64,000 bases of DNA, from assembly GCA_010015655.1 (NCBI GenBank), contig ML976683.1:9051-73050 (forward strand), in the 5' to 3' direction. How positions within the stretch are numbered: position 1 is the stretch's first letter; each line of letters opens with the position of its first letter. A program made the position numbers and the translations under genes. Below the pieces are notes generated by a model. The model had not been told where the DNA came from. It was given only the letters and a program-made list of their open reading frames with translations, and did not search any database. The stretch is from Bimuria novae-zelandiae CBS 107.79 (taxonomy: Eukaryota; Ascomycota; Dothideomycetes; Pleosporales; Didymosphaeriaceae). Below, piece by piece: positions 35,761-41,101 of the stretch.

Positions 35761-36258
35761 ATGGGTTTGAGCCACCGGCGCCTGCACGTGTCCCCCGAAC
35801 AGATCGAATCATCCCAGCGCTGATACTAGGCCTCCATTGGGTCGCACCTCCACCAGCGCATTGACCGAGAGTTAAGCTCACCTTGCTGCATACCCTGCTG
35901 TCAACGATGTACCTTCAGCCTGTTCACCTAACATGTAGGATTGCGGCGCAGACGGATTTCTGCGCGTAGGCCTCGTGGCGACTGGAGGCTCTGAGCGGCA
36001 ATGCCAGTTTGCAGAGATCTGCAAGCATAGGTCGAGTAACTTGGTTACGTTATGCCTCATGCCTTTGACTGACGATCGACAACTGTCTGATTCCTATAAT
36101 CCTTAAGCCTTACCTTTCCAGCTTTTGCCCAGCATTTCGTTTCCTTTCGCCTGCCGCTTGCGCCTTCGTTAAACGTTCATTCGCAAAGTGGTAGTGCCAC
36201 CGGTCTAGTACTCTACTTAATTCTATTCGTTACATTTCATTCTTCTTGTCTTTAGACA
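35761..36258. promoter_or_regulatory. Host DNA upstream of the DUF3176 gene
   Basis: First non-transposon DNA of the window: GC content and CpA/TpG are normal. No gene is recognised; short open frames on the minus strand have no family features. The last 120 bp before the ATG at 36,259 are pyrimidine-rich (TTCATTCTTCTTGTCTTTAG), as is common just upstream of starts in filamentous fungi. Confidence 0.45.
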
Positions 36259-38865
36259 ATGTCTAAGCTTCCCATATCCCCATTCTGGTCTTGCAATCCG
36301 CAAATTCCAATATACCTGGACACCGGCAACGAACGCGAGCAAATCTGTCCCAACTGCGATCTCAACTCGAGAGATCATCCGATCCACTGCATCACTACGG
36401 CCTCGCCGGCACCTCCTTCCTACCGTTCAGCTGCCTCGCCTGCCATTTCCTTGGGGAACCTAGCTCCTCCCACATACGACGCGAGTGCCTCGCCCGCGGC
36501 TTCCTCAAGGAACCTTGCTATGCCGACTCTTCGCCTGGAAACTCCACGCCGTTGGTACCGACCCCAAGCCCCTCGCCCTGCTCTCTGATTCGATGTCTAG
36601 TCCTATGCGCATAGCAGACCGCGCGTGCGAGCTCGTCGAGTAACATTCTCTCCTCTTTCGCCAGCAACAACGATACACGACGATGAACCCGGAAGGAGGA
36701 GTTATACCAGCGGGTCCTCGATCCCGAACACCCCAGTGGACGATACAGGATCTACAACAAAGGGCAATCTAGGACTTGGCATTCCAGAAGCCCCATTCAA
36801 TCCCGATCCGAGTCCAATACGATCCCCCGGCAGCGAACGACTCGCCACAGCAGAGAAAGGTGGACCTGTCAGGAAGAGCTCGACACCTAACCTCGCAGAA
36901 GGCCTCGAGCAAAAGCTATGGAAATATAGTGCCTCCAGCAACGTTGTGAAGCGCTGGCTTCTCGAAATCATTAGCTGGCTACTGAGTGCGTTGTGCATCA
37001 GTGCAATAATCATCCTATTGTTCTTCTTGCAGGGCAAGCTATTCCCCAAGCAGTGGCCGATGAACATCACATTGAATGCCTACATTGCTATCCTCTCGAG
37101 AATTGCCTCAGCCTCCCTTATGCTCCCAGTTTCGGAAGCACTTGGCCAACTAAAATGGAGCTGGTTTCAAGGCCATTCAAAGAAGATGTGGGATTTCGAA
37201 CTATTCGATAACGCGTCGCGAGGTCCCTGAGGATCTCTCATGCTTCTTGTTCGCACGCGGGGAACAACACTTGCTGCACTTGGCGCCGCCATCACGATTT
37301 TTGTGATGGCGATGGACCCGTTCTTCCAACAAGTTGTTCGCTATCCCTAGGTCATGGTGCTTCAAACACAGAACAGTTCGATTCCCAAGATCATACGCTA
37401 CGAACCGCATTTCACCAAACAAACGAAGGATGGGGCAGAGGAGATGAACCCCGACCTGAACATCAATGCGATAGTAGACAAGTTTTTTTTTTGACCATGA
37501 GGTACCGTTGGTCAACTTCGGGAACGGGACGCGTCCAGAGATACCAGTATTCGTATGTAAAGCCTTGGTACACGTCAGGTATGACTGAACTAACATTTGA
37601 CCTACGCATCTAGTGCCCAACCAGCGACTGTGACTGGGAGCCTTATGAAACGTTTGGCGTATGCAGCGACTGTGCAGATGTGGCCGATATGCTGGATTTT
37701 GGCTGCCTTGATGCCAATTTAGATTGGGTCCAGAATGCCACTCAATTCATCCCATACGAGAGTGGGACGATGTGCGGATGGTTCTTCAACGCGACTAGTG
37801 AGAGGCCGATGCTCATGTTAGGTTACCAGGTGGATTCCCCATCCAACCGGTCCACTGGGGAGGTTTTGACCACGCGAACCTTACCACTCGTCACTAACGC
37901 TAGTCGAAGAACTTAATGGGGCGGATCCAAACATATTCGGAACCCAATCAACAATTTCGTGGGTCGTTACAACCGCAGAAGGAGTAGACCAAGAGAGCGT
38001 CTTGAAGAGCGTTTTCCAACACCAGAGACCATGAGCGCTCGAGTGCGTCCTGTCGTGGTGCGTCAAAACGATCGAATCGTCCTATCACGAGGCGACGTAC
38101 AGTGAAGTCGTCAAAGACCGCTTCATCAACACAACTGCGGGCCCATTTCCCTGGACCTTCATCGCTTCCGACGCCAACAATCCCAACGACACTGCTGGGA
38201 AGATGCAATACTTACAGAGTATTACCGTCGATCCTCGAGCACGTAACGGCCAGGGCAATGTCTCTAGTTACGGTGCATCAAACGAAACAGCTATGAGCAT
38301 CCTCGCCATTTTCGATGATTATCTACCATCGTTTGCCACGCTTTCAAACAACAAGTCGAAGCCATTATTGAAGTACAAGTTCTGGGACGAGGAACCCTAT
38401 GAACGCGAATTTCCAATCAATCCATGGTCTACACCCAACAACGTGGCCCATCACGTAGGAAGACTCGCAACGGTAATGACGAATTTTATGCGGCAGTCGA
38501 GTGACGACGCGGTCTTGGGAAAAGCTTTTAGCCAAGAGACCTATGTAGAGGTTCGCTGGGTGTGGCTCACTCTCCCTTTGGTACTACTAGGACTGACCTT
38601 GATCTTCCTTCTGGGAACTGTGATACGCACTTCGATGGAGTGTGATCGGGTTGGTGTCTGGAAAAATTCTGCTATTGCGACACTCCTCTACGGATTACCC
38701 GACGAGATGCAACAGAAGATATCGACTTCACATGGCCAAGGCACACCACGCGCTAAGGCCAAAGAGATGAACGTCAGGATGCTTTCAACGAAGAAATGGA
38801 GGGTCTCAGGGCATATACTATCACCAACCGTGCGTAAGCCGAAGCCGCCACCAGGCTGGATATAA
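36259..38865 (+). pseudogene. DUF3176-family membrane protein gene, decayed
   Basis: About 848 codons once the intron is removed. N-terminal Pro/Ser-rich tail, then the DUF3176 start: a membrane helix (LLEIISWLLSALCISAIIIL, about 36,960), LPVSEALGQLKWSWFQ, FELFDNASRGP, a second helix (TLAALGAAITIFVMAMDPFF), the Cys motif CPTSDCDWEPYETFGVCSDC after the intron, ALECVLSWCVKT, and a last helix (WVWLTLPLVLLGLTLIFLLG, about 38,560-38,620). The family is fungal and of unknown function. Breaks: TGA 36,586, TAG 36,598, TGA 37,228 (a conserved Trp), TAG 37,348, a one-base excess in a T10 run (37,483-37,492), TAA 37,914, a shift near 37,960, TGA 38,032 (conserved Trp). The first two stops might lie in an unrecognised intron; the rest cannot. 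Confidence 0.85.
37553..37613 (+). other. Spliceosomal intron in the DUF3176 gene
   Basis: 61-bp intron: donor GTATGT at 37,553, branch-like CTAACA at 37,590-37,595, acceptor CTAG ending at 37,613. Removing it joins ...EIPVF to CPTSDCDW in one frame and removes an in-frame stop. That the intron is still intact shows this was a working gene before decay. Confidence 0.8.
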
Positions 38866-39286
38866 GCCGCCGGGGACAAGTGACACTTGGAAGATCGTTT
38901 GCAGCGGTATAACTCAATAATAGACAATTGATCACATGGACTTCGGAAATATTCTGATCTGCTGAACCGTCTTACTTGAACTCGTGAGCGTAAGCAGAAC
39001 CTAGTAATTCTTTGGGCTATCGCAAAGGCAAAGATCATCATCTGTTCCGACTCTCCATTACTTATGTCGTGGCTATTCGTTTGCTAAGCTCGAATGAAAA
39101 ATCGGACAGACAATATTGAGACCAAACGTTCCATGTTCTGAATACATCAAATGCTATGGCGCGCTAAGTAGGTCCTGTCCACATCTCAAACACTGCCTCT
39201 TCCTAACCCCACGGTCTAGACAAAAGAAAAGTAATTCAAGTAAACAAAGCAACAATAGCATCCCTCACATATTCTCCATGACTCCT
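38866..39286. other. Intergenic region between two convergent genes
   Basis: 421 bp between the 3' ends of the DUF3176 gene (plus) and the repeat-precursor gene (minus). It is expected to hold both 3' UTRs. No gene, repeat or clear polyadenylation signal was singled out. Confidence 0.5.
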
Positions 39287-39949
39287 CTACTCGTCATCTA
39301 CATCGGTTTCAACGAAGTCACGTCGGTAATTTGCGGATGGACCGCTGTATTGACGGGCTTCGGCCTCGCGCTTGTAGTTCGCTGATGGCCCGCTGTATTG
39401 ACGGGCTTCCGGCTCGCGCTTGTAGTTCGCCGATGGACCGCTGTATTGACGGGCCTCGCGCTTGTAGTTTGCTGATGGGCCGCTGTATTCACGAGCATCG
39501 CGTCTGTAGTTCACGCCTCCGTTGCCGTAGCTGTGGGCCCGTTTGTAAGTTGGCTTCGAAGTCCTCAGGCTGCGGTCCCTTTTGTTAACTCCACTATGAT
39601 CATAGACACGAGCGTCGCGCTTCTGCCATGAACCACCAACGTTCTGGTCTCTTGCGTCGCGCTTGTAGTTCGGCTCCGCCCCAGTTGCCCCAGAAGCGAG
39701 TCGGCGCTTGCCGTTCGATAATTCGAAGTTCTGGTTTCGTCCGTGATCGGGGATGGAACGCAGGACAATAGTGTCTAACCGTTCGAGAATCTCGCGCTTC
39801 AAGTTCTCAACGGCAGGAATGATGTTGTCTTCGTCCACATCTCGAACCTTCAAAGGCTCCGGGCTTTCGGCTGGTGATTGAATTGGCATAGGCGCAGCGA
39901 CGGCAGAAGCCGCGACGGACGCAACGAGAAGGATTAGACTGGCGTGCAT
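39287..39949 (-). CDS. Secreted Kex2-type repeat precursor (KEP / RiPP-like)
   Basis: Intact, intronless, 220 residues; ATG 39,947-39,949, TAG 39,287-39,289. Residues 1-19 are a signal peptide (MHASLILLVASVAASAVAA). An acidic pro-region follows to about 50, then dibasic sites at 51-52, 81-82, 96-97, 110-111, 123-124, 136-137, 149-150, 163-164, 177-178, 193-194 and 209-210, and an acidic tail (DFVETDVDDE). Four near-identical peptides lie at 151-208: DAREYSGPSANY, EARQYSGPSANY, EPEARQYSGPSANY, EAEARQYSGPSANY. Before them are diverged units such as DARVYDHSGVN and AHSYGNGGVNY. Known in fungi: Kex2 cuts after KR/RR and Ste13-type peptidase trims X-Ala/X-Pro, as in alpha-factor; dikaritin RiPP precursors share the layout. 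Inferred products: R-Q/E-YSGPSANY peptides, linear pheromone-like or cyclised through the two Tyr. No UstYa (DUF3328) gene is in the window. A structural repellent-type wall protein is an alternative. Confidence 0.85.
   Translation of the reverse strand: MHASLILLVASVAASAVAAPMPIQSPAESPEPLKVRDVDEDNIIPAVENLKREILERLDTIVLRSIPDHGRNQNFELSNGKRRLASGATGAEPNYKRDARDQNVGGSWQKRDARVYDHSGVNKRDRSLRTSKPTYKRAHSYGNGGVNYRRDAREYSGPSANYKREARQYSGPSANYKREPEARQYSGPSANYKREAEARQYSGPSANYRRDFVETDVDDE
39320..39499 (-). repeat. Tandem repeat encoding the YSGPSANY peptides
   Basis: Four in-frame units of 42, 42, 48 and 48 bp (14 or 16 codons including KR/RR), each with CTGTATTGACGGGC or a close variant on the plus strand. 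The unit lengths differ by 6 bp, exactly one X-Ala/X-Pro dipeptide, so variation keeps frame and processing sites. It is coding, not a CRISPR array. Confidence 0.85.
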
Positions 39950-40675
39950 GTTGTCGAAGTTTGGTGATTATTAAGTTGTTAATGTGTTTTTGAGTTGGTT
40001 ATCTTATCGGTCGTTGTAAAGATGCATAGCACTGGTAAGTTAAAGACAGGCACAGCCTGGAAGAAAGAATAGACGTTGGGGAAAGAATGTGTTTGGAGTG
40101 GATCCAGATCCGCTTGACGTTTCCAACCCGGGGAACGAATACTCTTTATGCAACAGCGCAACGCACACCATCCCAAGCACCCGTCAGCGCGGGGCCGCAC
40201 ACAATGCGCGCGTAAGCACCCGCTACCTTGCGTTGATGGTTGCCATGTCTTGCAGCGAACCAGCACACAAAACCGGCCCCGTTGCCTATCGCGGCAATAT
40301 CGATATCGCCATCCCACTTTTCCCAGCATCACGAGTACATTCTTTTAATCGTTGAGCTCACCTCTCATCCTGCAATTTCCCTGCTCTACACTGCATCCAA
40401 ACATCGTGGTCGGACACCCTACTAATCACCATCGAGCACGCTCCCAGCCGGCGGCTACGCAGCACTGTTTCCCCTCCTACTAACCGGCTAGCCGGCAGAA
40501 CGTCATCCAACTTACTGCTGTCAGCGCTTAAGAGATGGTTTCACACCTAGGTAGGAACTGCATTGCTCGCCGTTCCGCTTGCCGCCGCATTGATGTGGTC
40601 GGACCCAATGTCTTGGGGCGGCGCTTGGTACGTACCTATTTTCGTCTAGGGAGAGCAACACCACAACATACTCTA
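39950..40675. promoter_or_regulatory. 5' flank of the repeat-precursor gene
   Basis: About 725 bp of normal-composition host DNA between the precursor's start codon and transposon Q. The start context on the minus strand is CTTCGACAACATGC, a fair fungal context with A at -3. An inverted pair CCGGCTAGCCGG lies near 40,483-40,494. Overlapping open frames of 60-117 codons on both strands look random in composition and are not called. Confidence 0.5.
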
Positions 40676-40846
40676 CTGTGATTCCCCACCCAGCGCACGT
40701 CCCCACCCAACGCACGTTTTCGAGATGTTAACCACCCACAAAATGAGGCTGTAGAGCCAGCCACGATAGCTATAATTACAGGATTTTTTATAGAAGTAAA
40801 TATAAGATATATTTAAATTAATAGGTAGTAATAAACTACTTATAAT

Positions 40847-41101
40847 TGTTGAATGGGCTATACTAAGCCAAGCATATCGCGATATGATAGGGCTAGATAG
40901 TTATACGATGGTACGGGTGAGAAAAGGGTCTAGTATTCAAGTCTTGTCTATCTTATCTACGTACGGGGGAAAGAGGGTTATAAGGATTAATATTCACGTA
41001 TAGTGCCTATAGCCTGTGCCTTTACCTATATAGTATTATATAACTATTATTACTTATCTTAAAATATTATATTAGGTAGCTGCCCGTACTGCGTATAGAC
41101 A
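40847..41101 (-). repeat. 3' LTR of copia N
   Basis: 255 bp, TGTTGAATGGGCTATACTAAG to GTACTGCGTATAGACA (plus-strand reading). The shared core CCAAGCATATCGCGATAT contains a TATCGCGATA palindrome also present in the right LTR. Confidence 0.88.

Follow-up and report, generated by a model that had tools for sequence, protein, structure and literature searches.

The window analysed here, a 64-kb stretch of DNA (C28:9051-73050) from the 77.4-Mb genome of Bimuria novae-zelandiae CBS 107.79 (Didymosphaeriaceae, Pleosporales), carries on its minus strand an intact KEP precursor gene at 39287..39949, a frame of 220 aa that starts with ATG and does not require an intron. A sequence-only reading had described an intact precursor of the secreted type at this place, with eleven KR/RR sites, four near-identical peptides and an acidic tail, and had recognised in it the architecture of a Kex2-processed repeat protein. 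The open frame and the strongly hydrophobic N-terminus (Kyte-Doolittle) agreed with the first part of this description. The recount returned all of the listed features: 11 dibasic sites with KRR taken once, or 12 as overlapping matches with KRR taken twice, YSGPSANY four times, each time within a [QE]YSGPSANY unit, and the acidic tail, which reads DFVETDVDDE. The architecture was borne out by the repeat units between dibasic sites and by the existence of paralogues and relatives.

The putative signal peptide MHASLILLVASVAASAVAA (39893..39949, minus strand) was proposed from hydropathy and from conservation in an alignment of nine proteins (A2), with a putative cleavage point. The propeptide (39794..39892, minus strand) leads up to the first Kex2 site, K51-R52, both residues of which are invariant in A2, where they belong to 21 invariant columns, and in a second alignment of 11 proteins (A3). 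Further along the chain, on the same strand, lie a unit RVYDHSGVN (39584..39610), absent from the sequence-only description and identical as a peptide to the six repeats of the C4 paralogue, and the four YSGPSANY cores, embedded in DA-REYSGPSANY (core 1, 39464..39487), EA-RQYSGPSANY (core 2, 39422..39445), EPEA-RQYSGPSANY (core 3, 39374..39397) and EAEA-RQYSGPSANY (core 4, 39326..39349). These four units measure 12-14 aa without the dibasic pairs. Section 13 of PMC7329392 asks for three or more repeats, each 8 aa or longer, between Kex2 sites; judged from its sequence, the window gene counts as a KEP on that basis. LASGATGAEPNY, DARDQNVGGSWQ, DRSLRTSKPTY and AHSYGNGGVNY stand as single units before the repeats. 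Counterparts of single units were seen as RDQNVGSSG in Paraconiothyrium, KADPNY in P. minitans and TSKPTY in P0011, and because of this resemblance to units of relatives the window chain may release additional peptides. The precursor had no match above the curated cut-off in Pfam, NCBIfam or PDB; a PDB match to PucA-LH2-gamma on the window repeats (E 0.017) was taken as chance.

The gene sits in an island of about 5 kb spared by RIP (36001..41000, no strand assigned). In 1-kb bins between 36 and 41 kb the GC content was 0.49-0.53 and the TpA/ApT ratio 0.59-1.06, as against 0.26-0.38 and 1.38-1.84, respectively, in the flanking bins (30-36 kb and 41-50 kb). The location between transposon blocks proposed earlier was thus recovered in the form of RIP-hit, AT-rich flanks. 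That this would be the only undamaged gene held for frames of at least 150 aa outside N runs, where C28:1-103050 contains the KEP gene and otherwise three pieces located at the neighbouring DUF3176 gene, one of them antisense; it does not extend to genes with shorter exons, which would escape a stop-to-stop scan. The DUF3176 gene is the convergent neighbour (36256..38865, plus strand) and is damaged, with one stop inside its domain match (37009-37338) and further frame breaks, some of them possibly introns. The same pair of genes occurs at C27, where the domain lies in one open frame, and at C49, where it is split over two frames. The pair thus belongs to one duplicated segment in which the partner gene is decaying. 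At C160 a fragment is left, and at C4 blastn found no DUF3176 match. An obligate partnership was rejected in view of this distribution and of the damage to the window copy, which leads us to read DUF3176 as a passenger.

Five KEP paralogues, all of them open frames, were found in the Bimuria genome: the window gene on C28 and those on C27, C4, C160 and C49. Five is a lower bound, as candidate lists were possibly incomplete; the same set was recovered with P0009 as query, and P0012 as query gave no match in this genome. The window gene thus does not stand alone, having four paralogues in its own genome. Protein searches added Paraphaeosphaeria minitans, P. sporulosa, Lentithecium fluviatile, Didymosphaeria variabile, Paraconiothyrium brasiliense and three further proteins, again as a lower bound on the range, part of these searches having scored the best of about 8000 candidates. 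Relatives were thus found in four other named genera, with K51-R52 kept throughout both alignments. The leader was complete in the Paraphaeosphaeria and Lentithecium relatives. In the Didymosphaeria relative, where the start of the protein is absent, it was partial and accompanied by a single unit, and the Paraconiothyrium relative, as annotated, showed related repeat units without the leader; P0011 is a fragment. As five open-frame paralogues and relatives elsewhere share leader or layout, a chance pattern could be excluded for the window precursor. The C49 precursor (C49:386497-387258) is absent among the database proteins listed in the protein searches and may therefore be without a gene model. 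A further observation concerned Lentithecium and Bimuria, which we take to belong to different families within Massarineae: P0004 (Lentithecium) and P0005 (Bimuria C4) share 88% identity over 144 aa, which could reflect either transfer from lineage to lineage or strong conservation.

The five Bimuria KEPs combine one type of leader with differing repeated peptides. When 12 proteins were split at their dibasic sites and the units grouped by pattern, a grouping of our own, several classes emerged. YxGPSANY-like units occurred in the window gene, C27, P. minitans and the fragment P0011, and RVYDHSGVN-like units in C4 and Lentithecium, with single ones in the window gene, P. minitans, Didymosphaeria and P0011. 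GYAGxVYD-like units were found in P0007, as single units in P0009, P. minitans, C160, C49 and P. sporulosa, and by eye in Paraconiothyrium too. [YF]xPSAND-like units characterised C160, with two more in P. minitans, and RPVFAPKGND-like units C49 and P. sporulosa. The P. minitans chain combines four of these classes, and units outside all of them exist, such as the SPTSNY units of P0009. The dibasic sites between units were retained while the units themselves varied among paralogues. None of the five core strings was found in the article texts searched, which include few of the subscription journals, in line with the earlier statement that the core is not known among published ones; the supplementary tables of two KEP surveys lie outside this search and may list the family. 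The main text of PMC7329392 does not contain the name Bimuria.

The variation between repeats of a single gene is mostly silent. Among the repeats of one gene pS amounted to 0.50 (window), 0.39 (C27), 0.31 (C4), 0.70 (C160) and 0.61 (C49), against pN values of 0.023, 0.019, 0, 0.044 and 0.056, the C160 comparison omitting one of five copies that differs in length. Synonymous and nonsynonymous changes, counted as minimal changes per codon column and without the Q/E position preceding YSGPSANY, stood at 6:0 (window), 3:0 (C27), 5:0 (C4), 7:3 (C160) and 17:2 (C49), 38:5 in sum; the units counted are consecutive except in C49, where they are interrupted by one differing stretch. Against neutral synonymous shares of 0.28-0.30, the silent bias reached P = 0.0006 for the window gene and 0.024 for C27. 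Moreover, RVYDHSGVN in the window gene differs from the six C4 copies in 5-6 of 9 codons, and every one of these changes is synonymous. The repeated peptides therefore look constrained, on the understanding that repeats were gathered by peptide pattern and that copies drifted past this pattern would not weigh against constraint.

Pairs of the X-A or X-P type alone (DA, EA, EPEA, EAEA) precede 17 of the 18 pattern-fitting units in the window gene, C27, P. minitans and P0011, the sole exception being an EAET spacer; the search pattern omitted other units, for example EPEA-HQYSSPSGNY of P0011. In the window protein this Ste13 signature follows the Kex2 sites in all five pattern-fitting units. The spacers are compatible with an alpha-factor-like trimming by Ste13 to R[QE]YSGPSANY. 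C4, C160 and C49 and the relatives of these three have no such spacers before their repeated units, so that this trimming step would not be family-wide.

Upstream of the gene, a block (39950..40675, minus strand) was identified that is present at all five KEP loci. Its proximal 560 bp before the ATG showed 88.2-94.5% identity in all ten locus pairs (gap columns ignored), the last 50 bp being less alike in most pairs (63-100%). The likeness extends to about -700 at C27, C49 and C160 and to about -534 at C4; from 40251 to 40675 the window is 91-95% identical to the first three and 70.8% identical to C4, whose copy ends inside this stretch. A genome search with the block as query returned nine matches: five lie at the KEP genes, and the other four are partial and confined to the distal part of the block. 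A short repeat at the end of the block (40633..40677, no strand assigned) also occurs away from KEP loci; we ourselves read it as a transposon end. Adjoining the block, the stretch from -650 to -950 is 83-100% alike per 50-bp bin among C27, C160 and C49, and the frames beside it look transposase-like by eye, with no Pfam family for the two scanned (C27 and C49). A hidden gene in the block was considered and seems unlikely. Open stretches do exist in all five copies (98-124 aa sense, 93-164 aa antisense); these overlapping stretches shift frame and end at different places, pN/pS by frame lies at 0.62-1.26, and every frame contains codons that are a stop in one member of a pair only, so that a clear sign of coding was lacking.

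The leaders gave a different picture. Leader pS between the window gene and C4, C160 and C49 was 0.46 for the signal part and 0.38-0.46 for the remainder; between the window gene and C27 it was 0.10 and 0.19. The DNA between the gene and its convergent neighbour was 83.8% identical to C27 and 38-44% identical to the other loci, which is near the level of a forced alignment. The C160-C49 pair runs counter to the simple picture of an upstream region more alike than the leader, since its leader pS is 0 and 0.12 and its upstream identity 90.8%, the upstream region being the less alike part there. Trees of five sequences each grouped C27 with C160 and C4 with C49 from the upstream region (bootstrap 99 each), and C160 with C49 (100) and the window gene with C27 (99) from the leader, where selection could distort the result. 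Upstream data rejected the pairs C160+C49 (p-AU 7.4e-5) and window+C27 (0.009), and leader data rejected C4+C49 (p-AU 0.0017) and C27+C160 (1.4e-6). A 250-bp upstream stretch taken alone showed a milder conflict, with C4+C49 (100) and C160 beside them (92), hence the window gene with C27 as in the leader tree. This conflict points to partly different histories of the upstream and coding parts, for which exchange or conversion between loci would be the best reading, with constraint on the upstream region as a possible addition. The data suggest promoter exchange or conversion together with a common expression programme; with one block common to five genes, co-expression is predicted.

We consider it reasonably probable that the window gene is a KEP which would release linear secreted peptides as an extracellular ligand, its paralogues being co-expressed. 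The precursor chain would enter the secretory pathway, Kex2 would cleave after the dibasic sites, a Kex1-type carboxypeptidase would then trim KR/RR, and X-A and X-P pairs would be removed by a dipeptidyl aminopeptidase of the Ste13 type. The last four units would thus end as linear decapeptides, three times RQYSGPSANY and once REYSGPSANY, and one further unit as RVYDHSGVN. Such peptides would amount to several doses of one ligand, which would most likely serve as a signal or act on other organisms. Paralogues with much the same upstream region would release different peptides and may be expected to be expressed together. Characterised KEP products comprise mating factors, virulence factors and mutualism modulators (discussion of PMC9769878). 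According to the abstract of the same paper, KEPs of Coprinopsis have been expressed in Pichia pastoris and studied by peptidomics.

The predicted trimming brings the gene close to mating pheromones. In Ascomycota the X-A/X-P signature is "generally only dedicated to alpha pheromones" (Le Marquer et al., PMC6339444, section 8); according to section 9, KEPs of Basidiomycota and others carry this Ste13 signature as well. Like ascomycete alpha-pheromone precursors, the window gene, C27 and P. minitans have these pairs after Kex2 sites, and the window gene resembles the alpha-factor precursor in its layout and, for the YSGPSANY class, in its predicted trimming. It might then be this lineage's alpha-type pheromone precursor, its divergent core being recognised by the single Ste2 receptor. 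The genome contains one STE2 match, and another precursor was identified by none of three patterns: strict PYG[LM]P[IV]G had 0 matches, a looser PYG pattern 38, none in tandem and fewer than in a reversed control (57), and C..PGQ.C 27, of which the one examined was no precursor. These were narrow searches, covering one of the 27 Cys-pattern matches in detail, which lessens their weight in favour of a pheromone. The core, moreover, has neither the PYG[LM]P[IV]G motif nor the paired Cys of Dothideomycete alpha pheromones (PMC6339444, section 8), the window chain holds a second peptide class and, unlike alpha-pheromone precursors, C4, C160 and C49 lack the spacers and the five genes carry different peptides. 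We therefore regard a pheromone precursor as unlikely. The sequence-only reading had set the gene apart from alpha pheromones, which stood as far as the core is concerned; in its predicted processing the gene comes closer to them, through its Ste13 spacers, than was assumed there.

Repeated Tyr-containing cores between Kex2 sites are also found in dikaritin precursors (ustiloxin, phomopsin, asperipin), and Tyr cross-linking had been put forward as a possibility. Our searches did not support it. UstYa (DUF3328, PF11807) has 58 matches in the genome (search by exon, candidate lists possibly incomplete), none of them near any of the five KEP loci: C28, C4 and C160 have none, and on C27 and C49 the distance is about 360 kb and 279 kb. 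For tyrosinase (PF00264) there are 32 matches, and the five KEP contigs contain none of them. N runs near the C27, C4 and C49 genes (near 570-573.7 kb, 1044-1046 kb and 376 kb, respectively) limit this neighbourhood search at those loci; the N run on C28 (1 to ~9050) is about 39 kb from the window gene. A dikaritin cluster was rejected on these grounds, and the result is consistent with linear peptides. DUF3328 genes lie near 22% of KEPs, at 3.09 genes on average (Umemura, PMC7329392, abstract and section 7), so a missing UstYa neighbour is the common state. Distant UstYa-family enzymes among the 58 could still act in trans and cross-link the cores oxidatively, and Tyr does stand at each end of YSGPSANY and occurs in 65.6% of KEP repeats with a DUF3328 neighbour versus 38.2% without (section 7 of the same paper). 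Tyr is, however, absent from the C49 core, and the window core differs from the EDYXI motif of ustiloxins and phomopsins (PMC6339444, section 10). Such a dikaritin-type RiPP appears improbable to us. We assign an equally low probability to a secreted peptide, such as an effector or an antimicrobial, that acts on hosts or competitors and is encoded in a rapidly changing compartment of the genome. The island between RIP-hit blocks and the different peptides behind one type of upstream region would suit it, as would six KEP knockouts in C. cinerea without apparent axenic phenotype, in which their authors saw an indication of a biotic role (PMC9769878, discussion). The C27 paralogue, however, lies in surroundings of ordinary GC, and within a given gene the peptides are conserved, not diversified. 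An unprocessed structural repeat protein of the wall is very improbable: repeats with charged spacers alone are no proof of cleavage, but dibasic sites are kept between units that change among paralogues, and no Pfam family was found above cut-off.

The sequence alone singles out constant peptides and gives exact masses to seek. With the KEPs of Le Marquer 2019 and Umemura 2020 the Bimuria family shares a putative secretory-type N-terminus and a minimum of three repeats, each 8 aa or longer, separated by dibasic sites. It differs in two features not seen in the available parts of these surveys, namely that one type of leader goes with several classes of peptide, which a single chain sometimes mixes, and that the upstream block shows more likeness than silent sites do in most pairs of leaders. 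Peptides that vary by gene behind near-constant upstream regions offer a testable case of diversification in a secreted-peptide family. As a tentative extension, which we hold possible but doubtful, one upstream block, homogenised by exchange between dispersed loci and perhaps aided by the adjoining repeat, might drive interchangeable precursors as a system of peptide cassettes, with units drawn from a common pool through shuffling, loss and renewed amplification. The secreted peptide mix could then change under one constant expression programme.

A last observation concerned one of the matches outside the KEP loci: the 10-kb slice C148:10001-20000, in which the KEP detector found none, holds a distal fragment of the upstream block on the same contig as the best DUF3176 match of the genome.
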